A DNA stretch of 64,000 bases from Caldicellulosiruptor morganii (GTDB lineage: Bacteria; Bacillota; Thermoanaerobacteria; Caldicellulosiruptorales; Caldicellulosiruptoraceae): NCBI RefSeq assembly GCF_026810225.1, contig NZ_CP113865.1:287001-351000 (forward strand), written 5' to 3'. Shown here piece after piece: positions 23,309 through 60,105 of this stretch. Every line of letters begins with the position of its first letter. Within the stretch, counting starts at the first letter, position 1. Position numbers and translations under genes: made by a program. The notes beneath the pieces are model-generated. The model had not been told where the DNA came from, did not search any database, and saw nothing but the letters and a program-made list of their open reading frames with translations.

Positions 23309-23312
23309 AAAG

Positions 23313-23780
23313 GTGGCAAAGAAGATATTTCCAAAAGAAGAGGTGTGTGTGGGCTGCCATTTGTGCGAGGTCTACTGTGTGTATGCCCATTCTAAATACA
23401 AAAAGCCAACTGTGAAGGCCCATGAGCTTGTAAAACTTTACAACAAGTACAAAGATTCAAAACCAACTCCAAGGATTTTGGTTGAAGAAAAAAGTGGTGA
23501 GTGGACAACATTTGCACTGCAATGCAGACATTGCGACGATGCCCCCTGTACAAAAGCTTGTATCACAGGTGCTATGAAAAAGCTTGAAGACGGAAGAGTC
23601 ATCTGCGATGAGGAAAAGTGTGTCGGGTGCTGGTCATGTATAATGGCATGTCCGCACGGGGCAGTAAGGCGTGGGGAGAACAAAAAAGCAGCATCTAAAT
23701 GTGATTTGTGCTTAGAACTTGGGGAGCCTGCGTGCGTCAAGAACTGCCCGAACGAGGCACTTGTAATCAAAGAGGTGTGA
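23313..23780 (+). CDS. 4Fe-4S ferredoxin-type electron transfer subunit, copy 1
   Basis: A 155-residue polyferredoxin starting at GTG 23313 (MAKKIFPKEE), with GGAGAGGGGG upstream. Cysteine groups CVGCHLCEVYC, CRHCDDAPCTKAC, CVGCWSCIMACP and CDLCLELGEPACVKNCP can hold four clusters, as in HycB/DmsB-type subunits. It probably links the flavoprotein to the FMN subunit. A longer frame from 23289 overlaps the previous gene and is unlikely; the copy 2 gene starts at the same GTG. Confidence 0.9.
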   Translation: MAKKIFPKEEVCVGCHLCEVYCVYAHSKYKKPTVKAHELVKLYNKYKDSKPTPRILVEEKSGEWTTFALQCRHCDDAPCTKACITGAMKKLEDGRVICDEEKCVGCWSCIMACPHGAVRRGENKKAASKCDLCLELGEPACVKNCPNEALVIKEV

Positions 23781-23801
23781 AAAAGGGGGAAATGAAGCAA
23801 G

Positions 23802-25070
23802 ATGAGATATGTTATAATAGGAAACTCTGTTGCGGCCTGTGGCTGTATTGAGGCGATAAGAAAAGTAGATCTCCAAAACCCTATTGTTGTAATCTCAGAT
23901 GAAAAGTACAGGGTGTATTCAAGACCGCTTATTTCATACTATCTTGGTGGAAAAGTTGACGAGAACAAGATGTATATAAGGGATGAGGATTATTACGAAA
24001 AGAACAAGGTAGAAGCAATCCTTGGCAAAAGAGCTGTCTCAGTTGACTTCAAAAACAAAGAGGTTGTGCTTGATGATGGAAGTAAAGTAAAATACGATAA
24101 GCTCCTTATTGCAACAGGTGGGAAGCCTTTCGTGCCACCTACAAAAGGATTTGAACTAAAAAATGTCTTTACATTTATCAAGTTTGACGATGTAAAGGCC
24201 ATAGATGTGGCTATCAAGAATGGTGCAAAAAAGGCAACAGTTATTGGTGCGGGACTTTCTGGTCTTAAAGCAGCAGAGGCGCTTATCAAAAGGGGCTTAG
24301 AGGTTACAGTTGTTGAGCTTGCAAACAGGATTTTGGGCTCTATCTTGGATTTAGAGGCATCAAAGATAGTTCAGGATGAACTGGAAAAACACGGGATTGT
24401 TTTTAAGCTTGAAACATCTGTTGATGAGATAATTGGGGATGGCAAGGTTGAAAAAGTAAAGCTGAAAAATGGTGAGGTTTTAGATACCGACATAGTTGTG
24501 TTTGCCATAGGTGTTGTTCCAAACATTGACTTTTTGAAAGGGACAGAGCTCAAAATCAACCGTGGAATTGTTGTAGATGATCATATGAGGACAAACATTG
24601 AAGATGTATATGCAGCAGGTGACTGCGCAGAGGGGTATGACTGCGTCTATCAGCAGCAAAGAGTAATTCCTATTTGGCCAAATGCGTACAATCAGGGCGA
24701 GACTGCAGGTTATAATATGGCAGGAGTTGAAAAGACATTTGACAGAGGCTTTCCAATGAACTCTATAGGATTTTTTGATGTGCATATGATAACAGCAGGA
24801 ATTGTTATGCCAAACTCAGATGATATAGAGGTTCTTGTAAAGCATGATAAGGAAAAAAATAGCTATAGAAAGATTTACATCAAAAACGGTAGTGTTTTAG
24901 GATTTATGTTTATAAACTCAATTGACAGAGCTGGTATGATAACAAACATGATAAAAGAAGATTTGAATGTAGAAAGCATAAAGCACAGACTCCTTGACGA
25001 TGACTTTGGATACTTAGATTTGCCAAAAGAGCTGAGGCAAGAAAAGATTTTAGGGGGTGCAAAAGCTTAA
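23802..25070 (+). CDS. FAD-dependent NAD(P)H oxidoreductase subunit, copy 1
   Basis: A 422-residue class I pyridine-nucleotide-disulfide-type flavoprotein. The N-terminal FAD fold has IGNSVAACGCIEAI, the NAD(P) fold VIGAGLSGLKAAEAL, and the second FAD motif DVYAAGDCAEGYD. It resembles NAD(P)H:rubredoxin/ferredoxin reductases and the NirB N-terminus. It should pass electrons from NAD(P)H to the ferredoxin subunit of this operon. Start ATG 23802 has GGGGGAA upstream. Confidence 0.9.
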   Translation: MRYVIIGNSVAACGCIEAIRKVDLQNPIVVISDEKYRVYSRPLISYYLGGKVDENKMYIRDEDYYEKNKVEAILGKRAVSVDFKNKEVVLDDGSKVKYDKLLIATGGKPFVPPTKGFELKNVFTFIKFDDVKAIDVAIKNGAKKATVIGAGLSGLKAAEALIKRGLEVTVVELANRILGSILDLEASKIVQDELEKHGIVFKLETSVDEIIGDGKVEKVKLKNGEVLDTDIVVFAIGVVPNIDFLKGTELKINRGIVVDDHMRTNIEDVYAAGDCAEGYDCVYQQQRVIPIWPNAYNQGETAGYNMAGVEKTFDRGFPMNSIGFFDVHMITAGIVMPNSDDIEVLVKHDKEKNSYRKIYIKNGSVLGFMFINSIDRAGMITNMIKEDLNVESIKHRLLDDDFGYLDLPKELRQEKILGGAKA

Positions 25071-25071
25071 A

Positions 25072-25827
25072 ATGGCAGATAAGCAAAAGCTTACTATAGA
25101 TGCGAAGGGAGTACACTACAAAGAACTAAATGAGATGATTGAAAATGCCCTAAATGAGGGGTATAAAGAGATAGATTTGATAAACGTAAACGGGCAGCGC
25201 TATATAGGTGATGGGTTGACTTTCCCAGACAGAAAACTTAACATCTATGGCACCCCTGGCAATGATATGGCTGCATTCATGAACGGGCTTACAATAGAGG
25301 TTTTTGCAAACGGTCAAGATGGTATTGGAAATACCATGAACGCAGGCAAAATCATAGTCCATGGCTCAGCAGGGGATATTATAGGCTATGGTATGCGCGG
25401 TGGCGAGATTTTTATAAAAGGGGATGTTGGCTACAGGGTTGGTATTCATATGAAAGAATACCAAGATAAGATTCCTGTATTAGTTGTTGGTGGTAAGGCA
25501 GGAGATTTCTTAGGGGAGTACATGGCAGGAGGAAGAATTATTGTACTTGGTCTTACTTTAAAGGAAGATGAGGAGATAACAGGGCTTTATTGTGGAACTG
25601 GTATGCACGGTGGAATTATGTATTTAAGAGGTCAACTTCAACCATATCAGCTGGGAAAAGAAGTGAAAATAGTTGATATGGAAGAAGAGGATTATAAGTT
25701 TATAGACAAATACGTAACAGAGTTTGTAAAATACTTTGGCTACAGCAAAGAGTTTATAATGTCAAAGCCGTTTTATAAGCTAATTCCATACAACAAGCGT
25801 CCTTACGGCAAGTTGTATGCTTATTAA
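25072..25827 (+). CDS. Glutamate synthase GXGXG-domain subunit, copy 1
   Basis: A 251-residue protein matching the C-terminal beta-helix (GXGXG) domain of GltB: repeated glycine turns in GQDGIGNTMNAGKIIVHGSA, GYGMRGGEIFIKG, GDFLGEYMAGGRI and GTGMHGGIMYLRG. In full-length GltB this domain structures the ammonia channel. ATG 25072 follows the previous stop by one base. It completes the five-subunit set. Confidence 0.92.
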   Translation: MADKQKLTIDAKGVHYKELNEMIENALNEGYKEIDLINVNGQRYIGDGLTFPDRKLNIYGTPGNDMAAFMNGLTIEVFANGQDGIGNTMNAGKIIVHGSAGDIIGYGMRGGEIFIKGDVGYRVGIHMKEYQDKIPVLVVGGKAGDFLGEYMAGGRIIVLGLTLKEDEEITGLYCGTGMHGGIMYLRGQLQPYQLGKEVKIVDMEEEDYKFIDKYVTEFVKYFGYSKEFIMSKPFYKLIPYNKRPYGKLYAY

Positions 25828-36062: not shown

Positions 36063-37430
36063 ATGAGAAGTAGATACTATTGTGTAAAGCAGCATGATAT
36101 AACGGACTGTGCGGCAGCAAGTCTTGCGACAATTTGTTTGCAATATGGGAAAGAGGTATCAATAGCCAAAATAAGGGAAATAGCAGGGACAGACAGGTTT
36201 GGGACAACGGCATATGGAGTTGTAAAGGCGGCAAAGGAGCTTGGATTTGAAGCAAAAGCAGTTCGGGCAGAAACTAAAGAAGCAATATTTGAGAAAATAC
36301 CACTTCAGTGCATAGCGCATGTGCTGGTAGATGGTAAGTTGTTTCATTATGTTGTAATACATGAAATTGGTAAAGAAAAGATAGTGATAGCAGACCCGGC
36401 GAAAGGGATTGTGAAGTTAAAGCCTGAGGAGTTTTTTGAGATATGGACAGGCATTTTGATACTTCTTGTACCAAATGAGAGGTTCAAGAAAGGAAAACAA
36501 GAAGGAGTTTTGAAAAAGTTTTTTAAGCTATTAAGTCCGCAGAAGGGCTTGATATTGAATATTTTTGCAGTATCTATTGTATATACCTTACTTGGGATAG
36601 GGGCAGCGTTTTATTACAAGTTTTTGATGGATGATGTAATACCAAATCTGTTGAAGAATACTCTTCATGTTATAGCAGCAGGTGCAATACTGATTACGAT
36701 ATTTAAGGTGATATTAGGAGCATTCAGGGTAAGGCTTTTGATACATTTGAGCCAAAGATTGGATATTAGATTAATGCTGGGGTATTATGAACATGTAATT
36801 AAGCTTCTGATGAGTTTTTTTGGTAGCAGAAAGATAGGAGAGATAATTTCGAGGTTTATGGATGCGTCAAAGATAAGGGATGCGGTATCAGGTGCAACGC
36901 TAACACTTATGATAGACAGCGCAATGGCGGTGGCAGGCGCAACTGTTTTGTATTTGCAAAATTCCACGCTGTTTTTCATAGCCTTTGTAATGGTTTTGTT
37001 ATATGCAGCAGTAGTGCTTGGATTTAACAGGGCATTGAGGGAAGCGAACAGGCAGGAGATGGAAGACAATGCAATTTTGACGTCATATTTGGTAGAGTCA
37101 CTGAATGGGATAGAGGTAGTAAAGGCATTTAATATAGAAGAGGATGTGAATTTTAAGACAGAGAGCAAGTTTGTAAAGCTTTTAAAGGATGTTTTCAAGG
37201 TAGCGAACCTAAACAATTTGCAAAGTAATATAAGCAGTGGAATAGCAGCGGTAGGTGTTATGGTAATACTGTGGGCAGGAGCACACAAAGTAATAAATGG
37301 GCAGATGAGCATAGGAGAGTTATTTACATTCAATGCACTGCTTGCATACTTTGTAGACCCGATAAAGAACTTGATAGGATTGCAGCCAATGCTGCAGACG
37401 GCGATAGTTGCAGCCGAAAGGCTTAGTGGA
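36063..37430 (+). pseudogene. C39 peptidase-ABC exporter, truncated by an IS256 end
   Basis: About 456 residues of a peptidase-containing bacteriocin exporter. The N-terminal C39 domain has the full triad: Cys16 (Q10...DITDC16AAAS), His95 (GKLFH95YVVIH) and Asp111 (IAD111PAKG), so it could cut double-glycine leaders. Six membrane helices follow (about residues 155-430). The sequence reaches MLQTAIVAAERLS, just where the ATPase linker begins, and is then interrupted at 37431 by an IS256 terminus. The ATPase domain is missing from the window. A short read-through tail runs to 37544. No precursor is adjacent. Confidence 0.88.
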
Positions 37431-38680
37431 GACTTGTCAAGAATTTTGTGTTTCCAATTTATAACGCAAGTAGTAAAGTTGGGTTATATTATTGATGCAT
37501 TTTTTAATAGTGGGAACTCCATTTTTCCATTTTGTGCATTGTAAGTTCTCTCGCTGCAAGTAAATATTAATTTCTAAGACTTCAACAGACTGAAAGTATC
37601 CACCTGAATTTTCTTCTAGCCTTCTCAATCATGCTGTTTACACATAAAGCGGCGTTTGTGGTAAGAATATGCTTCCTTAATTCTTCAGGGTATTTCATAT
37701 GGGCAAGATAAAACTCTGCTTTTTCTGATATTGCAGCAATAAAATCGAGGATATTTTGAAAGATACTCGTTGCAAAGTTCTTTAAATTTAAATACTTATC
37801 AATCGAAATCAGAAGTTTAGAATTTTGATTTTGTCTAAACTCTTATTAAAAGTTGGAGCGTCTTCTTTTGTCATATGTTTTCTGATATTACGTTGTAGGT
37901 GGACAAAAGCAAACTTAAGATCAGCAAGAGGGTAAGCAAGTTTGACAGCATCTATAATACCAGGGAAGTCATCACTTATGACAATTAGAATCTCTTTTAG
38001 TCCTATTGTAATTAAGTCGTCAAATACTTTCATCCAATCAGCCTTGTTTTCTTTGCCGAAGAAAGAACAGAATACCAAAGATATTTTTTTACTTTTCTTG
38101 AGTCAATACCGAGGACAACATAACAAGTAACATATTTGCCCTTAGAATTATCCTTAACTTCACTTCTGAATAACCGTCGATGATTAAGAACAAAAGCACA
38201 TGTAGAGAATTTTCTTTGTTTAAATAATTGAAGTTCATTTTTAAGGTCTTCTTTAATTTTTAGGATTTCGTTTTTGTAATCAAGAAGATTTAAATTTTTC
38301 AAAGTTTGAACAAGAGAATACTCAAGAGTACCCGTTGACGTACTCATGACATAAGAAGGTAAGTAGATGAACTATCAACTCTTTTGTAGCGGTCAGGGAG
38401 GATAGAAGGGCAAAAATTCAAAAGTAACGTGTGCGAGGGACAGAAATTTCAAGACTGCCTACAGGTGTTGCAAGTTTTACTTCAATAAAAACCATTGCCT
38501 TTGTCATTGTCATTTTTAGCAAGGGCTACTTATTTTTCGATAACAAAAGGCAATCGAGCAGGTTTTACTTTTAGCTGTTTTAAAGCTGGGCGGTTAGGCT
38601 CGTCGCAAGAAACAATACATATTTAATACTTGTTCTACAGCTATATTTTTAGCAGTTTCGTAAATTTCGTTTTTATTCAT
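37431..38680 (-). pseudogene. Decayed IS256-family transposase (copy 1)
   Basis: The left terminus GACTTGTCAAGAATTTTGTG (from 37431) equals that of the intact element at 49189. Reading leftward from ATG 38680, MNKNEIYETAKNIAVEQVLN is the transposase start. Later fragments (38347-38030, 38078-37809, 37628-37437) align along the intact 409-residue protein but are separated by frameshifts and stops. The right end diverges after about 38710, where IS110-type leader DNA begins. Confidence 0.85.
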
Positions 38681-38819
38681 TTTCATGCCCCCTTGTATAA
38701 TTATTTTCGTAAGACACATCAAAAAAATTCTAATAAAATAACAACCAAAGTTTCGGTTAACATAAGATTTTGAGTCTCATCCTTAAAATAACATCTCAAA
38801 TACTACCTCTTTGAGAGGA

Positions 38820-39118
38820 AAGCAGCGCAAAGTCTCTTCCTGCTGCTTGTGGCTTCTAATCTTTAGCCACTTTAACGCTGGCCTCTTGCCAGCCATTCTA
38901 ACTTTGATATAATTCTTTCTATCTGGGCATGGAATTTACCTGTACGCGCCCCCTGGGAACGGAACTTCTTTCCGTATACCCGTGAAAAAGATTATTATTC
39001 CATTCCAGGTAAGTCTAAACTATTTGGCTGGTTGAGGCCAGCTTAGATCCTAATCAAAGCTGGTTCCTCGCATCACGTGCAAGGTTGTATACTTACCTTT
39101 GCTCGGAATGGAAAACTC
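38820..39118 (+). ncRNA. Candidate IS110 bridge RNA (element 1)
   Basis: The leader is full of perfect stems: GTGGCT/AGCCAC (38849-38869), GCTGGC/GCCAGC (38877-38893), ACGGAA/TTCCGT (about 38959-38975), and a long-range pair CCATTCC-A-GGTAAGT (about 39000-39014) with ACTTACC-N7-GGAATGG (about 39091-39111) that leaves a one-sided loop. IS110-type leaders are known to encode bridge RNAs whose internal loops pair with target and donor DNA. Part of this block is conserved in the IS110 remnant near 26990-27016. Exact ends and guide loops are not established. Confidence 0.6.
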
Positions 39119-39165
39119 ATGCCCTAATTCAATTTCAAAATCACTTGCAGGGAGGTTTAATTGCT

Positions 39166-40458
39166 ATGAATCTAAAACCTATTGCCGGGATTGATGTAGC
39201 CAAGTATTTCAGCGAAATGGTGATTATATCTCCTACAAATGAAATAATTGCCCGCTTGACTATCCGTCACAATAATCCCTCTGATTTTGATAGGGCTATT
39301 GAAATCCTTAAAAAAGTTGAAGAGGATTTCGCAGCACGCCCTATCATCGTCATGGAAGCCACAGGGCATTACCACAAAATCCTCTCCCGCTTCTTTACTT
39401 CTAATGGCTGGGATGTTTCAATTATCAATCCCATCCAATCTAATTCTATCAAAAATGCGGGAGTTAGAAAAGTAAAAAATGATAAAACCGATGCCCTGTG
39501 GATTGCATTAACTTTTAGACTTACTGACTCTACTGTAGTACAACCTTCATCTGAAATCCTCGACTGCTTGAAAAACCTATGCCGCCAGTATTACAACCTC
39601 AGTGATGAACTAACCTCTTACAAATACAGACTTACTTCTGTCGTCGATCAAATTATGCTCAATTTCAAAGAGGTCTTCCCTGACATTTGTTCTAAAACAT
39701 CCTTGGCTATACTTGAAAACTACCCAACTCCAACCGATATCTTAGGCGCTGACAGCGAAAAACTTATTTCCATCATTCAGCTAACCTCTAAAAAAAGCTA
39801 TCAATGGGCCAAAGAAAAATATGAATTACTTGTCGCAAAAGCTAAACAGTTTCAACCTTTTTCTATATCAGACTTAGCAACTGTTACTATGCTTAAAGTC
39901 TATATTAACATGGTCCTGAATTTACAGCAGAATATCGACAAAATTTTTGAAGCCATAAATCAACTTGTTCAGCAATCTTCGCAATCTCAGCCTTCACTCA
40001 TGGAAAATATTAACCTCCTTCAATCTATCCCCGGCATAGGTTTTCTATCCGCTGCAACTATCCTTGCTGAAATAGGTGATTTCGAAAAATTTTCAAAACC
40101 CAACAAGCTTGTTGCTTTCTTTGGTGTAGATCCTTCCGTAAATCAATCGGGGCAATTTGTTGGCACAAAAAATAAAATGTCTAAACGTGGTTCTAAAATC
40201 TTGCGAAGAATCTTATTTACAATTGCTCTTGCCAATATCAGAACAAAAAGAAATTCTAAACCTTGTAATCCTGTATTATTCGAATACTATCAGAAAAAGT
40301 GCCAACAAAAGCCCAAAAAAGTTGCATTAGGTGCTGTTATGAGAAAAATTATTTGTATTATCTTTGCTGTTATGCGCGATAAAAAACCTTTTGAACTTAG
40401 AACTCCAGAAGAACATATTCAAAAATACTTTAATAAAACTGCAGTTTGTAGTGCATAA
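39166..40458 (+). CDS. IS110-family transposase (element 1)
   Basis: A 430-residue DEDD transposase. The RuvC-like N-domain has Asp10 (IAGID10VAK), Glu64 (VMEATG), Asp106 and Asp109 (KNDKTDA). The C-terminal Tnp domain has LLQSIPGIGFLSAATILAEIGD and the serine-bearing MSKRGSKILRR. The start ATG 39166 has GGAGG (39151-39155) upstream; the longer frame to 39085 overlaps the structured leader. The reading frame is intact, so the element may be active. Confidence 0.93.
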   Translation: MNLKPIAGIDVAKYFSEMVIISPTNEIIARLTIRHNNPSDFDRAIEILKKVEEDFAARPIIVMEATGHYHKILSRFFTSNGWDVSIINPIQSNSIKNAGVRKVKNDKTDALWIALTFRLTDSTVVQPSSEILDCLKNLCRQYYNLSDELTSYKYRLTSVVDQIMLNFKEVFPDICSKTSLAILENYPTPTDILGADSEKLISIIQLTSKKSYQWAKEKYELLVAKAKQFQPFSISDLATVTMLKVYINMVLNLQQNIDKIFEAINQLVQQSSQSQPSLMENINLLQSIPGIGFLSAATILAEIGDFEKFSKPNKLVAFFGVDPSVNQSGQFVGTKNKMSKRGSKILRRILFTIALANIRTKRNSKPCNPVLFEYYQKKCQQKPKKVALGAVMRKIICIIFAVMRDKKPFELRTPEEHIQKYFNKTAVCSA

Positions 40459-40630
40459 ACAATTGTTCTGTTTACGAAACATTAGTTAACAATAACACTA
40501 CTCAGCCTCCATATGTTATGTCAACTTCTAATGGATGGCTTACCTTTTTGCGCCCTCTTTAAAGAATCTTATACCATAAAATGGTGTCAAAATTTTTTAA
40601 AAAAACTCTTGACTTTAATTAGCTGGTCTT

Positions 40631-41262: not shown

Positions 41263-41625
41263 AAATTTTAGAAATTATGGTATTAACTGTTTTAGTTTTT
41301 GTCGAAATTTATTTATGATTCAAATCATTAAAATTAGCTTTCATAACTAATTTTGATATAGCTTAATAAACTAATTCTCTGAAAACTGAGCTTAAATACT
41401 TAGATATTATTATACAATGCTTTAAACAAATAGCTCTAAAATGTTCCATAAATAACAATAAAATACATATGATTCTAATCTTAAAAATATATAACAGTTA
41501 ATAGTAACAAGTGTTGAACTCAAAAATATAAGCGGTAAATGAACTGCGTCTAATAATAAAGATTTAAAAAAAATGTGGCCTGGACTGAACCCTTTTATTT
41601 CAAAAACATCGGAGGTGATAAATGA
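41263..41625 (+). other. AT-rich leader region of the RiPP cluster
   Basis: About 360 nt without a credible gene. It should hold the promoter of the RiPP operon, but no clear -35/-10 pair stands out; several TATAAT-like strings occur. The GGAGGTG ribosome site of the precursor gene ends it (41610-41616). Confidence 0.4.
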
Positions 41626-41826
41626 ATGAATAGTAAAATTTTTATTAATCCTATACCTATTACCATGGATGAGGTCTACAATGCTTCTTTATCACATTTG
41701 GAAATGGAGTCACCGTCTCATGTGGGTGGAGGAATAATTGCAATAGCAATTGTTGCATGCGGTGGTAAATTGGGTTCGGCCACAATAGTTACTGCAGGTA
41801 CTACTATAGTAACAGTTGCTGCCTAA
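41626..41826 (+). CDS. Putative RiPP precursor peptide
   Basis: A 66-residue peptide with a strong GGAGGTG site. Residues 1-33 are leader-like: polar, acidic (TMDEVYNASLSHLEMESPS). A HVGGG motif (residues 32-36) is a good double-glycine cleavage site for the C39-like protease downstream. The remaining 30-31 residues form a very hydrophobic core with a single cysteine (Cys45, in VACGGKLG) and many Ile/Val/Ala/Thr, ending TIVTVAA. It directly precedes a PqqD-radical SAM gene. I do not recognise the core family. A role as bacteriocin or signal is inferred from context. Confidence 0.8.
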   Translation: MNSKIFINPIPITMDEVYNASLSHLEMESPSHVGGGIIAIAIVACGGKLGSATIVTAGTTIVTVAA

Positions 41827-41937
41827 TTATATTGTAATCTTTATTGAAATCTTTTTACTCTATGTATTTATTTTTATAATTTAGGTTTTATGAAGGTTCA
41901 GTCCAGGTCTGAATTTAAAGAAGTGAGGGGAGAAACT

Positions 41938-43401
41938 ATGAGTAAAGAACAAATCATAAAATATAAATATGCCGAAGAGAAAAAAATAATACCACTTCCA
42001 AACGACGATATTATTATTTTAGATGTTTCATCGCCCAACTGGTTAAAAACATCAATTACAGGAAAATATTTATTAGAAGAAATGAAAGAACCTAAAACAA
42101 TAGATGAATTAACTGCTAAAATATCTCAGGTTTACGGCTTACCAATAGACGTAGTTAAGCCTATTATTCGTGAGACTGTAGAAAAATTTTATGAAACAGG
42201 TGTTGTTATAAGGATAGATAAAGACAACAAATTTACTTCGAGGGAAAAGCAGAAAATTGAATCATTAGGACTACAACAAATATGGATTAATGTAACATAT
42301 GCCTGTAATTTAAATTGTTCTCATTGTTTTGCACGTATGAAAGGAGATACAGGCTTTATACCTGCTAATGATTTAATTCGTATATTTAAAGAAGCTCAAA
42401 GCTTGGGAGTTCAGGAGATAGTGATATCTGGGGGCGAACCAACACTCCATCCTGAATTAGAAAATATATTAAGAGAAGCAAGAAAAATAGGTGATTGGAA
42501 GATTAAGTTGATAACTAATGGATACTTATCTGGTAATCCTGAAAATGAAAGAAAAATAAAATCTCTTTGTAACTACGTTGATGATATCCAGGTTTCTTTT
42601 GATGGGATAAAACCTGAAACTCATGATGCTATTAGAGGGAAAGGTTCTTTTGAAAAAGCGTATCGATTTATGTTTTTATTGTCAGAAGTTGAAAGCATTA
42701 AAACAGGTATTTCATTTACGCCATTACCAAAAAATATAAATGAGATTCCAAAATTATTTAATTTTGCAATTCAAGTTAAAGCAACTTATATACACTTAAA
42801 TCGGCCTAAGTATCCCCTTAATACTTTGGCTTTTCCGTCATTAGACTTATTCATGTCACAACAATTTGCTGAAGAAGCTTTTACTGCTTATGATAAACTT
42901 GTACAAGAATTCTATAAATCCTTCGAGGATATGAGAAATCTTAATGTTAGACTTCCAATTATCGATACAAGTTTTGATCCAGCTTCTGAATTACTAAGCC
43001 CACTTAAAAAAGAAAGGTGTAGTGCTGGTATATTGACAATTGCAATTGATCCAAAGGGAGATGTATTTCCTTGTGCTGCCTTAATGAGAAGAGAAATGTT
43101 ATATTTTGGCAATGTTTTTGAGGAAGGACTTGAAAAGATTTATAAAAGAGGACGCGATAAAATGATAGAGTTATTTTCAGTTGAAAAAAATGATAAATGC
43201 AAAGAATGTTTGTTTCGATATTTCTGTGGTGGTGGATGTAGAGCAACTGCCAAGGATTTGAAGGAATGTGATTATTTATGTGATATATTCCAAAAGCGCT
43301 TTATAGATTTTTGGAAAAGGATTTCTCTGCCTGTAATAAGAACTTATGCAAATAAGATTTACGAAACAAGAGAAGGAGGTATAAAAAGATTGACATGTTA
43401 G
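41938..43401 (+). CDS. PqqD-fused radical SAM/SPASM peptide maturase
   Basis: A 487-residue protein. Residues about 1-100 are a PqqD-like leader-binding domain (GKYLLEEMKEPKTIDELT, then YGLPIDVVKPIIRETV). The radical SAM core carries Cys123-x3-Cys127-x2-Cys130 (CNLNCSHC) and ISGGEPTLHPEL. The C-terminal SPASM domain binds two more clusters: CSAG, DPKGDVFPCAAL, CKECLFRYFCGGGC and CDYLC. The layout is that of AlbA-type sactipeptide/ranthipeptide maturases, which link Cys sulfur or carbons in the core. With one Cys in the partner core the product type is open. ATG 41938 has GAGGGGAG upstream. Confidence 0.92.
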   Translation: MSKEQIIKYKYAEEKKIIPLPNDDIIILDVSSPNWLKTSITGKYLLEEMKEPKTIDELTAKISQVYGLPIDVVKPIIRETVEKFYETGVVIRIDKDNKFTSREKQKIESLGLQQIWINVTYACNLNCSHCFARMKGDTGFIPANDLIRIFKEAQSLGVQEIVISGGEPTLHPELENILREARKIGDWKIKLITNGYLSGNPENERKIKSLCNYVDDIQVSFDGIKPETHDAIRGKGSFEKAYRFMFLLSEVESIKTGISFTPLPKNINEIPKLFNFAIQVKATYIHLNRPKYPLNTLAFPSLDLFMSQQFAEEAFTAYDKLVQEFYKSFEDMRNLNVRLPIIDTSFDPASELLSPLKKERCSAGILTIAIDPKGDVFPCAALMRREMLYFGNVFEEGLEKIYKRGRDKMIELFSVEKNDKCKECLFRYFCGGGCRATAKDLKECDYLCDIFQKRFIDFWKRISLPVIRTYANKIYETREGGIKRLTC

Positions 43402-43670
43402 AAAAAAGACAATTAATTATGCAAAATATTACAACAGAACAACCGCTGAACGGCTGTATTAGAATAGTTAACAGTGAATATGAAATTTATCTTGGTACTC
43501 TCCAGGGATTGATTTGGAGAAAAATAAGTGAAAATGGACAATTGACAATAGGAGAACTTTATCAACTATTAATTTCAGAAAACATTAATATCAGCTATGA
43601 TGAATTAGTAGAAGTAGTATCTGTGTTTTTGCGTTATGGTTTGGTTGTAATACGAGATGAATTATGGTAA
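43395..43670 (+). CDS. PqqD-like RiPP recognition protein
   Basis: A 91-residue protein overlapping the end of the radical SAM gene by 7 nt. Its pattern (GCIRIVNSEYEIYLGTLQGLIWRKISENGQLTIGELYQLL..., then VEVVSVFLRYGLVVI) is the three-helix, short-strand pattern of stand-alone PqqD-family recognition elements. It could deliver the leader peptide to the second, cobalamin-type radical SAM enzyme that follows. An alternative start is ATG 43419. Confidence 0.75.
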   Translation: MLEKRQLIMQNITTEQPLNGCIRIVNSEYEIYLGTLQGLIWRKISENGQLTIGELYQLLISENINISYDELVEVVSVFLRYGLVVIRDELW

Positions 43671-43686: not shown

Positions 43687-45139
43687 ATGACGCGGTCACA
43701 TGTTATATTAATTCAAGCCTGCAAATTCTCATTAATTACTGAAAAGTACAAAGAAAGGTATCCTTATCCACCTTTTGGATTGATTTGCCTTGCTAATATA
43801 TTGAAGATGAATGGATATGATGTAACTATTATAGACTTATACTTAGAGCCACTAAGCAAAAGAGAATTTGTTAAAAAACTTACACAAAGTAAAAGACCAT
43901 TATTAATCGGTATATCAAGCTATACTGATTCTATTCTAGATGCTTATAAAATAGCTGAAACTGCCAAAGAAATTTATTATGATGTTCCAATAATTATGGG
44001 CGGTCCCCATGTTAGTTTTATGTTTGAAGAAGTTATGAAAGATTGCTATGCTGTAGACTTTTGTTGCTTAGGAGAAGGTGAACCTGTTTTAGTTGAATTA
44101 TTAGAGTATCTACAGTATGGAGTTCCAAATTTAAAAGATATATATGGACTTGTGTACCGTAACAGTTTAGGACAATGTATTGCTAATCCTAAAAGAGGCT
44201 TTATAGATTCTCTTGATATTATGCCTTTTCCATGGTTTTCTGAAAAGGTCCAATCTATAATTAGAGAAGGAGAAGGTTTTGTTTTTGTATCCAGCCGAGG
44301 GTGTCCTGGAGAATGTATTTTTTGTGCTTCGAGAGCTCTATCGGGTCCAAAATATCGCTGCCACTCAGCTGAGTGGTTAGCAAGTCTTATCTATTACTAT
44401 TACAAACTTTTATCCTTTAAAATGTTTGGACCTTTAGATGATACTTTTACAGCTAATCGAATAAGGTTGAAAAAGTTTTTAAGTTATTTAAAAATTTTAG
44501 AAATTAACATTCCTTGGTCGTGTAAGAGTAGAGTTGATGTTATTGATGGAGAATTGGTGGAGATATTGTATAAATCAAAATGCATATCTGTTCATATTGG
44601 TGTAGAAAGTGGCGATGATGAAGTTCTTAAATCTATTGAAAAAAGGATAACTGTAGAAAAAGTATTAAAAGCAATTACACTATTAGCTTCAAAAGGTATT
44701 CGTGCAGAATGTTCTTTTATTATTGGTCATCCAAGTGATACATTAGAATCTATTGAAAGAACCCTTATTTTAGCTGACAAATTTAGATAAATGTGGTGTA
44801 GCAATATCTGTGATGGGAATTTGCACTCCTTTTCCTGGTACGAAAATATGGAATAGACTTAAACTGTATGAACTACAATATGGATTGAAAATTCATACAT
44901 ATAATTGGCGTTTATATGATTTAGGAACGCCTATCTTCAGTACTAATAATTTTACATTAGATGATTTAAGGAGGGCATTTTTTTATTTTAACTATTTAAG
45001 AAAAACAGGACAAATATTACCATTGTTGACTAAGTACAATCATAGTAACTACATTAAAATGATTGATGATTATTTAAGTATAATCCATAAAATTAGAAGT
45101 ACAAATGAAGATGAGGTGAATCAGAAAAATGATGTATGA
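43687..45139 (+). pseudogene. Cobalamin-binding-type radical SAM enzyme, frameshifted
   Basis: From ATG 43687 (GGGGGG upstream) the first about 367 residues contain a B12-binding-like domain (FGLICLANILKMNGYDVTII, IMGGPHVSF, CCLGEGEPVLVELL) and a radical SAM core with Cys206-x3-Cys210-x2-Cys213 (SRGCPGECIFCAS). The frame stops at 44790, but the next frame continues the family pattern (DKCGVAISVMGICTPFPGTK) to 45139. Removing one A near 44785 restores a protein of about 483 residues. Class B radical SAM enzymes often methylate carbons. The break may be real or a read error. Confidence 0.85.
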
Positions 45140-45323
45140 GTTTCTTGTTGGCTTTCGTGTTGTTTTAAGATGTCAAAACAATTTAACATTTGCAGGTATA
45201 TTAAAAGATATTATTGTAAAGGACGATAAAAAATATGTTTGGATAGTAACCGATGAGATATCACAATTTGGGATTCTTTGCCCTGTAGACTTTATTTATG
45301 AAATGATAAAAGTACCTATTTAA
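45129..45323 (+). CDS. Small protein of unknown function in the RiPP cluster
   Basis: A 64-residue, soluble, beta-rich-looking protein (VGFRVVLRCQNNLTFAGILK, WIVTDEI) that overlaps the upstream frame by 11 nt and has GAGGTG 9 nt ahead. The strand pattern recalls small Sm/SH3-like barrels, but this is only an impression. It could be a cofactor, a regulator or an immunity factor. Confidence 0.6.
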   Translation: MMYEFLVGFRVVLRCQNNLTFAGILKDIIVKDDKKYVWIVTDEISQFGILCPVDFIYEMIKVPI

Positions 45324-45349: not shown

Positions 45350-46021
45350 ATGATAGAATATTTATATTATGTGATTATTATATTATCTCTATGGGCTGTA
45401 TTACCCCTATTGTTTATGTTGTTGATTTCTATGTTAGCATATTTTTTCAAGAAAAATGATTTTATAATTAGACGTATTATGAAAATTGGATTAGGTCTTG
45501 GAAAGGAAAATGATGATGGAATCCAGATGCAAGTGAAGCATTTTGATTGTGGAAAGGCAGTTTTAAGCCAGATTTTAATGGATTTTGAGCTTTTTCATGC
45601 TGATTTATCATTGCCAGAACCTAGTTCAATGAAAGATATTGTTGAAGTTGCCTCAAAGCATGGTTGCTTAGCTTACGGTTATAGTGAAGCAACACTCACG
45701 CTAATTGAAGAGAGTATTAAAAGGAATGGCAAAGTTATGACACTTTTAAAAATTTATTATCCATTTGAGGGGTGGTGGGTAAAACCTACCAAATTAATGT
45801 TAAAAGTGCTATGTGGGAAAGAAGATTTGTATCATTGGGTTATGATAGAGAAAATACACGAGAAATATATTTACATTATTGATCCTTATTTCGGTAAAAT
45901 AAAATTGTCAAGATATTCTTTTGAAGATTGTTGGACAAAAAAAGTTATTTTTATTTATAATCCACTTACTCGTAGCAAAACTATTGCAAAAAGAGGGGAG
46001 GATAACATATGTATCCCATAG
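45350..46021 (+). CDS. Membrane-anchored C39-like leader peptidase
   Basis: A 223-residue protein with an N-terminal membrane helix (about residues 5-33) followed by a C39-type cysteine protease domain: oxyanion Gln62 and nucleophile Cys67 (MQVKHFDCGKAVL), His162 (YHWVM) and Asp178 (IIDPYFGKI). Unlike classic exporters the protease is not fused to an ABC subunit but is encoded just before separate ABC genes. It should cut the precursor after its Gly-Gly on export. It overlaps the ATPase gene by 13 nt. Confidence 0.8.
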   Translation: MIEYLYYVIIILSLWAVLPLLFMLLISMLAYFFKKNDFIIRRIMKIGLGLGKENDDGIQMQVKHFDCGKAVLSQILMDFELFHADLSLPEPSSMKDIVEVASKHGCLAYGYSEATLTLIEESIKRNGKVMTLLKIYYPFEGWWVKPTKLMLKVLCGKEDLYHWVMIEKIHEKYIYIIDPYFGKIKLSRYSFEDCWTKKVIFIYNPLTRSKTIAKRGEDNICIP

Positions 46022-46749
46022 AAACTATAGAGCTTACAAAGATTTATCGCAAAACTTCTCAAGGGATTGAAGGAATAGAAAAGATAAGTCTTAAGCTTTC
46101 AGAGGGACAGATACTGTCGTTGTTAGGACCTAATGGTGCAGGAAAAACTACTTTCATTAAAATAATTACTTCACAAATATTACCTGACAGTGGTGAAGTA
46201 TTTATTTATGGAAATCCACTTTGCAAAATAATTAAAGAATCTCAAATTTTAATTCGACAACAAATTGGATATTTGCCAGAAACGCCGTTTTTCTACGCCA
46301 AATTAACAGGTTGGGAATTTGCAAGATTTATGGAGAGTATATATAATTGTCCTTTAGAAGAAGGTGGTAGTTTAAGTTTTCATAGTATCGCAGACGCTTT
46401 TAATTTGACTTCTCACTTAAATAAATTAATAGCTTCTTATTCGCAAGGCATGTTACGTAAACTTGTTCTTTGTTTTGCAATAACTTTTGGCAAAAAAATT
46501 ATTATTCTTGATGAACCTTCAAACGGTTTAGATCCTGATAGTTATTTGACATTAAAAGATATCTTGCGCGAATGTAGAGCTCAGAAAAGAGCTATTTTGC
46601 TTTCTACACATCATTTATCTTTAGCCCAAGAGATTGCAGATGAAATTGCAATATTTCATCAGGGGCATATAAAATGTAAAGTAAAAAACGATGGTTCAGT
46701 AGAAGTATTATACAAAAAAATAATTCACGAGGTGAAAAATATAGAATGA
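46009..46749 (+). CDS. ABC transporter ATPase of the RiPP cluster
   Basis: A 246-residue ATPase: Walker A GPNGAGKTT, signature SYSQGMLRKL (variant of LSGGQ), Walker B IIILDEPSNGLD, and the switch His in LSTHH. ATG 46009 lies after GGGGAGG. It overlaps the permease gene by 4 nt and should drive export or provide self-immunity. Confidence 0.9.
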   Translation: MYPIETIELTKIYRKTSQGIEGIEKISLKLSEGQILSLLGPNGAGKTTFIKIITSQILPDSGEVFIYGNPLCKIIKESQILIRQQIGYLPETPFFYAKLTGWEFARFMESIYNCPLEEGGSLSFHSIADAFNLTSHLNKLIASYSQGMLRKLVLCFAITFGKKIIILDEPSNGLDPDSYLTLKDILRECRAQKRAILLSTHHLSLAQEIADEIAIFHQGHIKCKVKNDGSVEVLYKKIIHEVKNIE

Positions 46750-48206
46750 AGCTATATAAAGCTTTTTTTTCTTCTGCTTTTATACGCGCTGTTCGAACAA
46801 TAGGTATACCATTAAATTGTGAGTGTTCTAAAAAAAGAATCTTACTGAGTATTTTTACTTTGGCTTTAGGGATACTATTTTTTATTTTGAGTTTACATTA
46901 CGTGCCAGAGTCTTTTAAAATTTATCTTCCTTCTTTATTGATTGAAAAGTGGCTTGCTATTGTAATTTTTACTATTGGAGTTGGTAACTTAATTGGTCTT
47001 TTAAAATTTGAGTATGGAGAACGAGAAGAAATCATGTTTATGCTATCGTTACCTATATCACGTCAGTTCATTGTTAATTGGAAAATAACAACTCAGATAC
47101 TAGAATTTTGTATAATTATGCTAATACTGCTGTTATTTGTTGTTCCATGGGGCAGTGAGGCTATAAAGTGGGAAATTTTTTGTGTCCAATGGTTTGTTCT
47201 TTTTCTTCTTACGATAGCTAGTCTAATGTGGGGCATGGTAGTTTCTGCATTAATAGCTAAAAAAATAACCAATGAACTATTGCGAAAAGTAGTAACTTAT
47301 GGATTAGTGTTATTTTTCTTTGTGATGTCGATAATAGCAGTTTTACACATTGATACAAGTTTTATTTTTAAGCTATACAATAATGCGTGGTATTGGATAG
47401 CAACTACTAATCTTCTATTAGTGTTGGTAGCATTATCGATAAAGGCGACATGTACTTACTTTTCTGCATTTTTTGAAATTTTAAATATTTCTAATAGTCG
47501 CACAGAAACTAGAAATTATGGTAAAAATAAATGGGGCAGTTTTATGACTGCAACAGCTAAAAAGGATTGTCTTTACTACTTAAGAGAAATAGATCAATTA
47601 ATTCAAATGTTAATTATATTTGTTATTATAATAATTTCATTATCGAAATTCTCTTGGTTTGAAAAATATAGCATTTTGCTTATATTGTTGTGTCTTCCAT
47701 ACAGTTTTTCCGGGATAATTACATTACATTTGATTGGCAGAGATGGGGTAGCTTTAAACTTAATTAAGATGCTGAGAGGTACATTAAAAAATTATTATTT
47801 AATGCGAACTGTACTGTCTTATATTTTCGTCTTAATACCGACGTTGATATCCTATATTTTTCTATCAATTCTTTTCTATAAAGAAGGATTTTATATCCAA
47901 AATATATTGTTGATATTATTATTTAGTTTTATTTTTGTTATGTTAGCAATGGGTATCTCAGTTCTATTTCTACAAAAGAAAAATGGAAATATATACCTTC
48001 AAAAAAGAGGTGTTTCTGTGTTAGGGGAAATTTTTTATTGGGTTGTAGGAATTGTTTTGCCTATAGCATTAACTCGATGGGCAAACAATGGATATAAGAT
48101 AAGTAATGTTCCATTGGGGTTTATTGTGATAGCAATAGTTACCATAGTTACAATAATTAGTATTTTTATAGTTGGTTATCTCTACATTGATAAGGTAAAT
48201 GATTAA
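46746..48206 (+). CDS. ABC-2-like permease of the RiPP cluster
   Basis: A 486-residue integral membrane protein with about twelve hydrophobic segments and no other domain. The ATGA overlap with the ATPase gene shows the two are partners. Large permeases like this are found with bacteriocin export or immunity systems. It is the last gene of the cluster; no clear terminator follows, and IS debris begins after about 80 nt. Confidence 0.8.
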   Translation: MKLYKAFFSSAFIRAVRTIGIPLNCECSKKRILLSIFTLALGILFFILSLHYVPESFKIYLPSLLIEKWLAIVIFTIGVGNLIGLLKFEYGEREEIMFMLSLPISRQFIVNWKITTQILEFCIIMLILLLFVVPWGSEAIKWEIFCVQWFVLFLLTIASLMWGMVVSALIAKKITNELLRKVVTYGLVLFFFVMSIIAVLHIDTSFIFKLYNNAWYWIATTNLLLVLVALSIKATCTYFSAFFEILNISNSRTETRNYGKNKWGSFMTATAKKDCLYYLREIDQLIQMLIIFVIIIISLSKFSWFEKYSILLILLCLPYSFSGIITLHLIGRDGVALNLIKMLRGTLKNYYLMRTVLSYIFVLIPTLISYIFLSILFYKEGFYIQNILLILLFSFIFVMLAMGISVLFLQKKNGNIYLQKRGVSVLGEIFYWVVGIVLPIALTRWANNGYKISNVPLGFIVIAIVTIVTIISIFIVGYLYIDKVND

Positions 48207-56069: not shown

Positions 56070-57164
56070 TTGCTAAGAGAAGGGCAAGTCAGGATTCCGT
56101 CGGGTTGTGCTATATCCGGGTTTATTAACAAAAAAGGTGTGAGGATTTCGGGCACAGATATCATAAATTCCATTGCCATTATGAAAGAAAGAGGTAATGG
56201 GCTTGGCGGTGGGTTTGCAGCATATGGAATCTATCCTGACAGAAAAGACTGGTACGCTTTTCACCTGTTCTTTGATGACATAAAGGCAAAAGAGGATACA
56301 GAGCATTTTCTGAACCAGAACTTTGAGGTTTTGGAAGGTGAAGTGATTCCAACAAGAAAGGTTTCAAGCATTCAAAACGCTCCGATTGTGTGGCGATACT
56401 TTGTAAAGCCTCTTGAGAAAAGGTTGAGAGATACCGAAAAGACAGAAGAGGACTTTGTTGTTGACAGTGTCATGTTCATAAACAGTCAAATTGAGGGTGC
56501 ATATGTATTTTCAAGCGGCAAGAACATGGGAGCATTCAAAGGGGTTGGATATCCTGAAGATATAGGAGAGTTTTTCAGGATTGATGAATACAAGGCATAT
56601 ATCTGGACAGCACATTCAAGATTTCCAACAAACACACCTGGCTGGTGGGGCGGTGCACACCCGTTTACACTGCTTGACTGGTCAATTGTCCACAACGGTG
56701 AGATTTCATCATATGGGACAAATTATAGATACTTAGAGATGTTTGGATACAGATGCACACTCAGAACAGACACAGAGGTCATGGCATACCTTTTTGATCT
56801 GCTTTTAAGAAAGCACAAACTTCCTGTTGAGATTGCAGCAAAAGCACTGGCAGCACCGTTCTGGAGTGTGATAGACAGGCAAAGCGAAGAGGAAAGAGAA
56901 AAACTGAGAGCAATTAGAGCTGTGTATCAATCATGCCTTGTAAACGGTCCATTTTCTATCATTTTGGGATTTTCAAATGGAATATTGGCATTGAATGATA
57001 GGATAAAGCTAAGACCACTTGTTGCAGCACAAAAAGGCGACTTTGTTTATGTTGCATCAGAGGAGTCGGCTATCAGGGAGATTTGCAAAGACCTTGATAG
57101 GGTCTGGATGCCCAAGGGTGGCGAAGCTGTTTATGTTACTCTTGATGAAGGGGTGATAGTATGA
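56070..57164 (+). CDS. Glutamate synthase, glutamine amidotransferase subunit, copy 2
   Basis: The 364-residue protein is identical to that of copy 1, including the TTG start and Cys13 nucleophile in PSGCAISGF. The nucleotide sequence is the same for about the first 715 nt of the gene and then shows scattered third-position changes. It overlaps the FMN gene by 4 nt. Function as for copy 1. Confidence 0.92.
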   Translation: MLREGQVRIPSGCAISGFINKKGVRISGTDIINSIAIMKERGNGLGGGFAAYGIYPDRKDWYAFHLFFDDIKAKEDTEHFLNQNFEVLEGEVIPTRKVSSIQNAPIVWRYFVKPLEKRLRDTEKTEEDFVVDSVMFINSQIEGAYVFSSGKNMGAFKGVGYPEDIGEFFRIDEYKAYIWTAHSRFPTNTPGWWGGAHPFTLLDWSIVHNGEISSYGTNYRYLEMFGYRCTLRTDTEVMAYLFDLLLRKHKLPVEIAAKALAAPFWSVIDRQSEEEREKLRAIRAVYQSCLVNGPFSIILGFSNGILALNDRIKLRPLVAAQKGDFVYVASEESAIREICKDLDRVWMPKGGEAVYVTLDEGVIV

Positions 57165-58705
57165 TTTCGCTATATGAAAACGAATTTGAGGTCGTAAGGG
57201 ACGAGCTAAAGTGTATTCGCTGTAAAGTATGTGTGAGACAGTGCGCAAACGAAGTTCATGAATATGATGAAGAGGAAGACAGGGTTGTTGCAGATTCTTC
57301 AAAGTGTGTTGCATGCCACAGATGTGTTGTTATGTGCCCGACAAAAGCACTTACAATCAAAAAGACAGAAAATGCATTCAAGGAGAATGCTAACTGGACA
57401 GCAGCTTATATAAATGAAATCTACAAACAGGCAGAGACAGGTGGAATACTTTTGACCGGTATGGGCAATGACAAGCCAATACCAATTTACTGGGATAGGC
57501 TCCTGATAAACGCATCCCAGGTTACAAATCCATCAATTGACCCGCTGAGAGAGCCAATGGAGCTCAAAACCTTTATTGGTAGAAAGCCTGATAAGCTTGA
57601 GTTCGATGAAAACGGCAACCTTAAAACAAAGCTTCCACCACAGCTTGAATTAGAGGTACCTATTATGTTTTCTGCGATGTCATTTGGTTCAATATCGCTC
57701 AATGCTTGCGAGTCTTTGGCAGCGGCAGCAGTTGAGGTAGGGACATACTGGAATACAGGTGAAGGTGGACTTCATCAAAAGCTTTACAAATACAAAGAAA
57801 GAGCAATAGTTCAGTGCGCATCGGGAAGATTTGGTGTTGATGTTGACTATCTGAACGCAGGTGCAGCAATTGAGATAAAGATAGGTCAGGGTGCAAAGCC
57901 GGGAATTGGCGGGCACCTTCCTGGTGAGAAGGTTGGTGAAGAGGTATCAAGAACGAGAATGATTCCAGTTGGCTCTGACGCAATCTCACCGGCACCGCAC
58001 CATGATATTTATTCAATTGAAGACTTAAGACAGCTCATTTTTGCTCTAAAAGAGGCGACAAACTACACAAAACCGGTTGGTGTCAAGATTGCAGCTGTGC
58101 ACAACGTTGCAGCCATTGCATCTGGGATTGCAAGAGCAGGGGCTGACTTTATCACAATAGACGGTGTAAGGGGCGGAACAGGAGCAGCACCGCTTAGAAT
58201 AAGAGACAATGTTGGTATACCTATTGAGCTGGCACTGGCAGCGGTTGACTCAAGACTTCGAGAAGAAGGGATCAGGAATCAGGTTTCAATAATTGTTGCA
58301 GGTTCAATCAGAAACAGCGCGGATGTTGTAAAGGCTATTGCACTTGGTGCCGATGCAGTCTATATTGGAACAGCAGCGCTGATTTCCTTAGGGTGCCATG
58401 TTTGCCAGAAGTGCCACACCGGAAAGTGCAACTGGGGTATTGCAACACAGGACCCTGTTCTGGTAAAAAGGCTAAATCCAGAAATTGGGGCTAAAAGAGC
58501 TGCAAACCTGCTCCGTGCATGGTCACATGAGATAAAAGAGATGCTGGGATTGATGGGAATAAATGCTCTGGAGAGCTTGAGAGGAAATAGACTTATGCTT
58601 CGAGCAGTTGGGCTTACAGAAAAAGAGATGGAGATTCTTGGTGTAAAGCATGCAGGAGAGACAAACGGTAAAATGTCAAGAGGGTTTTTAAGAAAAATTT
58701 TTTAG
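57161..58705 (+). CDS. Glutamate synthase, FMN/iron-sulfur subunit, copy 2 (altered C-terminus)
   Basis: A 514-residue protein that differs from copy 1 by only a few residues (NWTAAY for NWTPSY, VEVGTYW for VDVGTYW) up to KHAGE. There the IS110 insertion replaces the last two codons (GV) with the 14-residue tail TNGKMSRGFLRKIF read from IS110 DNA. All ferredoxin, FMN and 3Fe-4S residues are kept, so activity is probably preserved. Downstream genes are now 1.86 kb away and likely uncoupled. Confidence 0.92.
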   Translation: MISLYENEFEVVRDELKCIRCKVCVRQCANEVHEYDEEEDRVVADSSKCVACHRCVVMCPTKALTIKKTENAFKENANWTAAYINEIYKQAETGGILLTGMGNDKPIPIYWDRLLINASQVTNPSIDPLREPMELKTFIGRKPDKLEFDENGNLKTKLPPQLELEVPIMFSAMSFGSISLNACESLAAAAVEVGTYWNTGEGGLHQKLYKYKERAIVQCASGRFGVDVDYLNAGAAIEIKIGQGAKPGIGGHLPGEKVGEEVSRTRMIPVGSDAISPAPHHDIYSIEDLRQLIFALKEATNYTKPVGVKIAAVHNVAAIASGIARAGADFITIDGVRGGTGAAPLRIRDNVGIPIELALAAVDSRLREEGIRNQVSIIVAGSIRNSADVVKAIALGADAVYIGTAALISLGCHVCQKCHTGKCNWGIATQDPVLVKRLNPEIGAKRAANLLRAWSHEIKEMLGLMGINALESLRGNRLMLRAVGLTEKEMEILGVKHAGETNGKMSRGFLRKIF

Positions 58706-58810
58706 ATTATTAGGCGAAAAAAGGCAATAAAATACCTGGCCGCACAGCATGGTAAAATTTAACTGGCAGCTTGTTCAGAGAAAATTATTAAACTAAAAAT
58801 TTGAGATTAA

Positions 58811-60055
58811 CTAAGTATTGTAAACATCACCTCTTTCTTGATATATTTGACCTTTGCTGAGCATTGCAAAGATCAGAGGAATTAAGCGTCTTGCGGTGAG
58901 GACGAGGGCACGTTTATGCTGGTGTTTGGTAACCTCTGAGAACTTCTTGTTGTAGAAAGCTTTGTAGCGTACTGTGTGCACCCTTACACAGTTAGCAGCT
59001 TCAACAAGATAGTATCTCAGGTATTGGTTACCACACTTAGCTAATGAGACATCTTGGGCATTGAAATTGCCTGACTGATATTGAGTCCAAACCAGGCCAG
59101 AGTATTTAGCTAAAGCAGCTTCATTTTTGAAGCGCTTGATATCACCGATTTCAGCGATGATGCCGGCTGCGAGAACGTCACCTATGCCAGGAACGGTTGT
59201 TAATGTTTGAGAGAAAGCTTTAAGAAGTTTTGAGATTTCTTTGTCAAGTTTTTTGAGTTGTTCTTGCATAAATCTAATGTTTTCAAGTGTCATAGACAAA
59301 GCTAAATCATTTGCCTCAGCCAACAGAGGATGTAATCTAAAGGAGCGATTAGCAGCAGTTTTAAGTATTTCAGCAATTTTATTAACATCTGAGAGTCTAT
59401 TGTTGCCGTTATCGGATACGAATTTAATTAAGTCTTCTAAAGGCATAGAAGCGATATCATCAGGTGTAAAGTTTTCGATGATAGCGCAAGATGCCTTACC
59501 GAAGATATCTGAAAATGGGCACTCTTGAGAATAAGTAGAGAATTTAAGGTATATGAGATTGAGAGCTCTGTTTTTTTCGCGAGTTAGATTATGAACAAGG
59601 TGGTAGCGCATTCTGGTAAGGCGTTGCAGTGCAGCAAATTTAAAATCTGGCAAAGGTGTTGGATTTAGTTTACTGAACCTGACACATTCAGCAATAACGA
59701 TAGCGTCAATATTATCTGTCTTAGGCAAGAAAGTGTAGATTTTTTTAAATCCTTTGACGATGCTTGGGTTAAGTACGTAGAAGGTTGGTTTGTAAGGTAG
59801 TAGTTCAGAAGAAGAAGCAAGATGAAGGTGAAGATGCCATGTGTAATGTGAAGTTGCTTCCATGCCAAACTTAATACAGGATAGATTATACTGGCTGAGA
59901 CAATCAATAACTCTTTTGATTAATTCGTTAGCGCCTTCTTGATTGTTAGGCAAGGAAAAAGGTTTTTTAATCAAGTGATTACCGGCATCATCGATGAAGA
60001 AGATAGAATTTGACTGACTACTGATATCAATGCCCACGATTAATGTATTAGGCAA
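58811..60055 (-). CDS. IS110-family transposase (element 2)
   Basis: A 414-residue DEDD transposase only distantly similar to element 1. Asp10 (LIVGID), Glu66 (FGMEATSHYTW), Asp114 and Asp117 (PKTDNIDA) form the RuvC-like site. The C-domain has TLTTVPGIGDVLAAGIIAEI and SLAKCGNQYLRYYL, where Cys replaces the usual Arg before Gly-Asn. ATG 60055 has GGAGGC upstream. Intact and possibly active. Confidence 0.92.
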   Translation of the reverse strand: MPNTLIVGIDISSQSNSIFFIDDAGNHLIKKPFSLPNNQEGANELIKRVIDCLSQYNLSCIKFGMEATSHYTWHLHLHLASSSELLPYKPTFYVLNPSIVKGFKKIYTFLPKTDNIDAIVIAECVRFSKLNPTPLPDFKFAALQRLTRMRYHLVHNLTREKNRALNLIYLKFSTYSQECPFSDIFGKASCAIIENFTPDDIASMPLEDLIKFVSDNGNNRLSDVNKIAEILKTAANRSFRLHPLLAEANDLALSMTLENIRFMQEQLKKLDKEISKLLKAFSQTLTTVPGIGDVLAAGIIAEIGDIKRFKNEAALAKYSGLVWTQYQSGNFNAQDVSLAKCGNQYLRYYLVEAANCVRVHTVRYKAFYNKKFSEVTKHQHKRALVLTARRLIPLIFAMLSKGQIYQERGDVYNT

Positions 60056-60105
60056 TTTAAAAGCCTCCTTTCTAAAGTGTGGTGTTAGGAAAAGAGTTAA
60101 GCCCT

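Follow-up and report, generated by a model that had tools for sequence, protein, structure and literature searches.

A rare single-cysteine RiPP cassette of Caldicellulosiruptor morganii with a putative RNA stem around the precursor gene

The 64,000-nucleotide stretch of Caldicellulosiruptor morganii DNA analysed here (NZ_CP113865.1, positions 287,001 to 351,000; hereafter the window) contains a gene cassette that is rarely found. The best explanation, which we consider rather probable, is that the cassette makes a hydrophobic RiPP that probably acts on membranes, combining a one-bridge sactipeptide-like product, B12-dependent modification, C39 cleavage, ABC export or protection, and a looped precursor mRNA. 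The product is most likely a secreted, membrane-active, single-thioether, sactipeptide-like RiPP by its predicted chemistry, and is probably a bacteriocin. The most unusual feature of the cassette is the putative RNA stem beside an Sm-like protein.

Precursor peptide and cassette genes

The features of the cassette are as follows.

41577..41591, + strand: 5' arm of the putative stem (GGCCTGGACTGAACC), ahead of the precursor RBS and complementary to 41895-41909
41611..41619, + strand: strong Shine-Dalgarno sequence of the precursor, GGAGGTGAT, as read from the letters
41626..41826, + strand: RiPP precursor, 66 aa, with leader 1-35, core 36-66 (GIIAIAIVACGGKLGSATIVTAGTTIVTVAA) and invariant Cys45
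41895..41909, + strand: 3' arm of the stem (GGTTCAGTCCAGGTC), immediately before the radical-SAM gene
41938..43401, + strand: radical-SAM/SPASM peptide maturase, 487 aa, with N-terminal PqqD-like (RRE) domain (Pfam Radical_SAM 1.1e-26, SPASM 2.7e-8, PqqD 3.6e-4)
43395..43670, + strand: stand-alone RRE protein, 91 aa (AlphaFold pLDDT 85.5; structure matches Z 10.2 to the TigE N-terminus, 10.1 to TbiB1, 9.3 to the PbtF RRE)
43687..45139, + strand: B12-binding radical-SAM enzyme, interrupted by a frameshift (B12-binding 5.6e-22, Radical_SAM 2.1e-18)
45129..45323, + strand: Sm-like protein of Hfq/Rof-like fold, 64 aa (AlphaFold pLDDT 89.6; Z 10.0 to YaeO/Rof, 9.6 with rmsd 1.4 to M. jannaschii Hfq)
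45350..46021, + strand: membrane-anchored C39 (double-glycine) peptidase with Cys67, His162 and Asp178 (Pfam C39 1e-10)
46009..46749, + strand: ABC ATPase of drrA / lantibiotic-protection type
46746..48206, + strand: multi-TM ABC permease without a Pfam family, 33% identical to its UBA5509 counterpart

The precursor ORF starts with ATG and encodes an acidic leader with a Gly-Gly site at VGG (residues 33-35). Compared with the classical LSxxELxxIxGG motif, the leader residues L22-S23..E26-M27 are present but lie two residues farther from the Gly-Gly. The 31-residue core after VGG has a GRAVY of +1.69, contains no Asp or Glu, and has Cys45 as its sole cysteine. Hence, the very hydrophobic, single-Cys core of the original prediction stands, as does its limit of at most one thioether. 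It notes several Cys as usual for sactipeptides, which holds as a rule, yet SKF has just one sactionine, Cys4-Met12, together with a disulfide (PMC8172795). Membrane insertion of the core is plausible from its composition. The window has T at 41623 where its sister genome, a species of the same genus (G008), has G. With this T, an additional ATG arises out of frame, 4 nt ahead of the precursor's own start, and could weaken precursor translation in the window strain.

Profile search revealed two distinct precursor homologues besides that of the window, one in the MAG UBA5509 (loci L005 and L004; 53% identity) and the other in G343 (loci L022 and L010; 61% identity). L004 was inside the profile, while G343 was outside it and was found with an E-value of 1.8e-31. 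These three are the only distinct precursor sequences across about 2000 genome look-ups, many of which repeated the same genomes, and the precursor peptide of G008 is identical to that of the window. Weak matches at L011-L019 were judged to be chance because of their E-values of 0.005-0.05 (15-18 bits) and their mostly long host ORFs. As peptides of this type recur in two independent homologues, the precursor ORF is a real gene beyond chance. Between the window and UBA5509, synonymous changes are saturated while dN of the core is 0.17-0.24, which places the peptide under strong purifying selection.

In the alignment, residues M14, D15, P30, and V33-G34-G35-G36 are invariant in all three precursors, the Gly-Gly region reading VGGG, VGGA, and VGGG. 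Further invariant core residues are C45 G46 G47 K48 L49 G50, A52 T53, V55 T56, G58 T59, and T63 V64, and the longest invariant block is Cys45 with its GGKLG context. The proposal that Cys45 and the two following glycines would be invariant is thus borne out in three of three distinct precursors, and homologues lacking the Cys, which would have spoken against it, are not found among the two divergent ones. GGAGGTG, the counterpart of the window's Shine-Dalgarno sequence, is present at L005 and L022. The radical-SAM/SPASM gene follows the precursor in the UBA5509 and G343 loci too, although the L022 contig stops within it, and this agrees with the predicted pairing of precursor and SPASM enzyme. 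Likewise, the predicted Gly-Gly leader finds its VGG site together with an intact C39 peptidase in the cassette. Upstream of the L022 precursor, positions 3217-5571 hold another radical-SAM gene, which looks B12-type, along with a methyltransferase-like gene.

The cassette runs in the order precursor, SPASM maturase, free RRE, B12-radical-SAM enzyme, Sm-like protein, C39 peptidase, ABC ATPase, and ABC permease. UBA5509 (L005) has the eight genes in the same order, with aligned pairs being 33-53% identical, and is the sole true relative in the genome contigs searched; L006 was dismissed as a generic radical-SAM match. No precursor relative was found in viral contigs, and no maturase relative in plasmid and phage records at 1e-25 / 1e-20. 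The SPASM match of the maturase is above the Pfam cut-off. Its cysteines C123/127/130 (CX3CX2C), C361, C379, C421, C424, C430, C434, and C448 are kept in a 49%-identical homologue. Its nearest solved relatives are CteB (the best), PqqE, and SkfB, and its similarity to sactisynthases is generic, with NCBIfam matches far below the cut-offs.

The two small proteins were compared by structure, scoring their AlphaFold models as VIA Z. The 91-aa RRE protein belongs to no Pfam family. The 64-aa protein, which has no Pfam family match above cut-off, is modelled as an N-terminal helix followed by a five-stranded Sm barrel, with Z of 8.5-10 against Rof and many Hfq chains; this modelled fold alone would be insufficient to show RNA binding. 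The catalytic Cys, His, and Asp of the C39 peptidase are intact when aligned to a solved double-glycine protease (PDB 6mpz) and are conserved in L005. In the window, an additional T within the TTT at 44782-44784 splits the B12-radical-SAM gene, which is intact in G008 and L005. Because of this extra T, the window strain may lack the B12-dependent modification, unless the T is a sequencing error. The B12 enzyme with its frameshift, the second RRE, the Sm-like protein, and the putative stem around the ORF go beyond the original prediction.

A putative long-range stem around the precursor ORF

In three of three loci, an inverted-repeat search found a pair of complementary arms on either side of the precursor's RBS and ORF, with 13-15 bp in two and 10 bp in the third. 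The arms lie at 8559-8573/8963-8977 in L005 and at 6382-6391/6695-6704 in L022. Dinucleotide shuffles of the same flanks reached the observed score in 0/2000 cases for the window, 1/2000 for L005, and 36/2000 for L022. Among natural sequences with this spacing, only one further site in the 64 kb of the window (near 52.4 kb) matches the window's arm pair, and 0.2% and 3.5% of placements reach the score in L005 and L022, respectively, true sites included. Arm scores within a locus are 37.5, 39.5, and 27 for window, L005, and L022, versus 12.5-19.5 between loci. Each locus preserves complementarity between its own two arms, while arms from different loci complement each other at background level; pairing is kept and sequence is not. 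This pattern speaks for selection on the pairing, strongly for two loci and modestly for the third, L022, with the weakest stem. In three unrelated lineages, the stem, with differing arm sequences, thus seems to close the precursor mRNA into a loop.

According to ViennaRNA, the arms pair with a probability of about 1 at 37 C; at 75 C, where part of the loop structure is lost, the probability is still 0.94-0.97 (0.94 for the window). The stem leaves the precursor Shine-Dalgarno sequence unmasked, and translation of the loop need not break the arms because these sit in untranslated RNA. Eighteen SCIFF precursor loci, placed by script with approximate start codons while 12 others were left unplaced, score 15.5-26 for flanking complementarity; in the lack of a comparable stem at these 18 loci, the stem was dismissed as a general trait of radical-SAM precursors. 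Rfam gave no match, and in open-literature searches no description of such a stem came up, which is weak evidence of novelty. The closest likeness is to the type I toxin mRNAs hok and AapA (PMC6733600), in which the 5' and 3' regions of a small toxic-peptide mRNA pair; unlike these, the stem here spares the Shine-Dalgarno sequence, lies within an operon, and has no known antisense RNA. Between the precursor and maturase of L005, a local hairpin (GCACCACAG/CTGTGGTGC, 8891-8915) is seen that the other loci do not show.

The flanking inverted repeats might instead be DNA elements, namely an invertible segment, paired operators, or the terminal inverted repeats of a mobile unit. Recombination and operator sites, too, typically have inverted repeats of 13-15 bp, and the 5' arms have a short GGCC-containing motif in common. 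However, cross-complementarity between arms of different loci is at background, unlike a shared protein site; no target duplication is seen beside the arms and no recombinase gene in the cassette; the orientation is the same in all loci; and the window's arm pair includes a G-U. We therefore regard the DNA-element explanation as rather unlikely, and that of a transcription factor site was judged weak because the arms fail to cross-match between loci. In the preferred RNA stem, the 5' UTR would pair with the intergenic stretch that precedes the radical-SAM gene. The resulting loop may then govern how stable the precursor message is, or how it is processed, compared with the messages of the enzymes, and the Sm-like protein could take part in this. 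A more specific idea, which we put forward as doubtful, is that stem and dedicated Sm-like protein form the cassette's own RNA control, acting by processing, stabilisation, or antitermination to give much precursor and little enzyme. We know of no such RNA control module described for RiPPs. A stem whose arms stay complementary as their sequence changes offers a testable idea for the precursor-to-enzyme ratio in RiPP operons.

Proposed pathway, class, and alternatives

Two RREs would bind the leader, a free one and one that is part of the SPASM enzyme. The SPASM radical-SAM enzyme would then form a one-bridge hairpin, linking the sulfur of Cys45 to a single residue on the far side of the Gly-rich turn. 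The acceptor is predicted to be most likely the invariant Thr53, since an i,i+8 bridge across GGKLGSA matches the spacing of SKF, ruminococcin C, and thuricin CD. Inner bridges of i,i+8 spacing are common, being found in SKF (Cys4-Met12) and RumC2, a ruminococcin C (Cys45-Arg53) (PMC8172795), and thuricin CD has Cys13 and the modified residue 21 (PMC3132745). The B12-radical-SAM enzyme would add a further modification such as C-methylation, impaired here by the frameshift. Cleavage at the Gly-Gly site by the stand-alone C39 peptidase would release the leader, and export of the peptide and/or protection of the producer would fall to the ABC pair. Coming from thermophiles, a C-modified peptide with one bridge could show unusual stability, and one invariant Cys provides the simplest substrate for asking whether a SPASM enzyme forms a thioether or attacks aliphatic carbons.

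A short leader-core precursor adjoining modifying enzymes and an RRE places the cassette among RiPPs, and Gly-Gly or Gly-Ala before the core along with a C39 peptidase having conserved Cys/His/Asp places it among double-glycine systems. It has both a conserved donor Cys in the core and a SPASM maturase with auxiliary-cluster cysteines, as sactipeptides do, their linkage in the product being predicted. Like sactipeptides (SKF/SkfB, thuricin CD/TrnCD, subtilosin A/AlbA), it combines a hydrophobic, hairpin-prone core behind a leader, a PqqD-like domain with a SPASM radical-SAM enzyme, protection ABC genes, and a Cys in the N-terminal half with a Gly-rich turn and a candidate acceptor 8 residues on. 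Unlike them, it has a single Cys, an extra free RRE, a B12-radical-SAM enzyme, an Sm-like protein, a stand-alone C39 peptidase, an only distantly related maturase, and a stem enclosing the precursor ORF. The precursor matches no Pfam or NCBIfam entry, including the NHLP or Nif11 leaders of proteusins and polytheonamide. The sactibiotic-like cluster known from published Caldicellulosiruptor minings, Calkr_0222/0223 (PMC3132745), is a different system, with a GGEPLL motif, two maturases, and three-Cys precursors of CX3CX3C-like spacing.

Two other chemistries and one other role were weighed against this product. It is unlikely that the SPASM enzyme modifies aliphatic or hydroxyl side chains of the core, leaving Cys45 for a disulfide or for modification by the B12 enzyme. 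Chemistry on aliphatic carbons, already raised in the original prediction, is in keeping with the B12-radical-SAM enzyme of the cassette. The core is dominated by Ile, Val, and Thr, with T53, V55, T56, T59, T63, and V64 invariant; the radical-SAM RiPP enzyme TvgB acts on Val, making cyclopropylglycine from it (PMC9062424); and the free RRE is structurally nearest to the TigE N-terminus. The cassette thus resembles TvgB/TigE cyclopropylglycine-type RiPPs in having a radical-SAM enzyme with RRE and an aliphatic core. Yet the tandem TVGG-type motif of TvgA-type precursors (PMC9062424) is not found in the precursor, TigE is missing from the sequence matches of the maturase, and the longest invariant block is centred on a conserved Cys. 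We consider it quite improbable that the single thioether is of the ranthipeptide type, at a beta- or gamma-carbon instead of an alpha-carbon. CteB, the best solved relative, is the maturase of a SCIFF peptide, and a SPASM maturase with possible thioether chemistry is common to ranthipeptide/SCIFF systems (CteB, PapB). In contrast, the precursor has one Cys instead of the six Cys in 45 residues of SCIFF peptides, no NCBIfam precursor match, and no Cys-Asp repeats, and SCIFF precursors of relatives have no stem; the acceptors of freyrasin are Asp in a Cys-rich precursor (PMC8172795), while the core here lacks Asp and Glu, with Thr as a possible acceptor. That the product is a signalling peptide or cell-surface component rather than a bacteriocin is somewhat unlikely: core conservation seems above expectation for a bacteriocin, but the ABC ATPase resembles the lantibiotic-protection type, and the ABC pair is kept without the precursor in another congener, G004.

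Island, sister genome, and relic

The cassette lies in an island that is rich in IS elements (34373-54900). From 34373 to about 54.9 kb, G008 is 99-100% identical to the window, while the flanks are about 87-96% identical, and this difference suggests recent gene flow of the island between the two species. An IS110-like element at 38695-40627 is present in the window and absent from G008.

G004 has a relic of the cassette (L037, 6434-9505) containing the Sm-like, C39, ATPase, and permease genes only, with the precursor and biosynthetic genes gone. The relic directly adjoins an IS end, is cut exactly there, and shows 95.5% identity. Its dN/dS values of 0.49 (Sm-like), 0.21 (C39), 0.16 (ATPase), and 0.36 (permease) indicate purifying selection. 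Because G004 keeps the ABC/C39 part without the peptide, retention of these last four genes is as would be expected for self-protection, and the relic provides ready-made candidate self-protection genes.

The window holds other rearranged genes. A C39-containing ABC exporter at 36063-37544 stops after the membrane domain, lacking its ATPase domain, and adjoins transposase fragments. On either side of the island lies a close duplicate of a glutamate-synthase-like gene set (20709-25827 and 56070-63079), whose members are an amidotransferase, an FMN domain, a ferredoxin, an oxidoreductase, and an alpha domain. The second copy (56070-63079) is broken by a transposase gene at 58811-60055.
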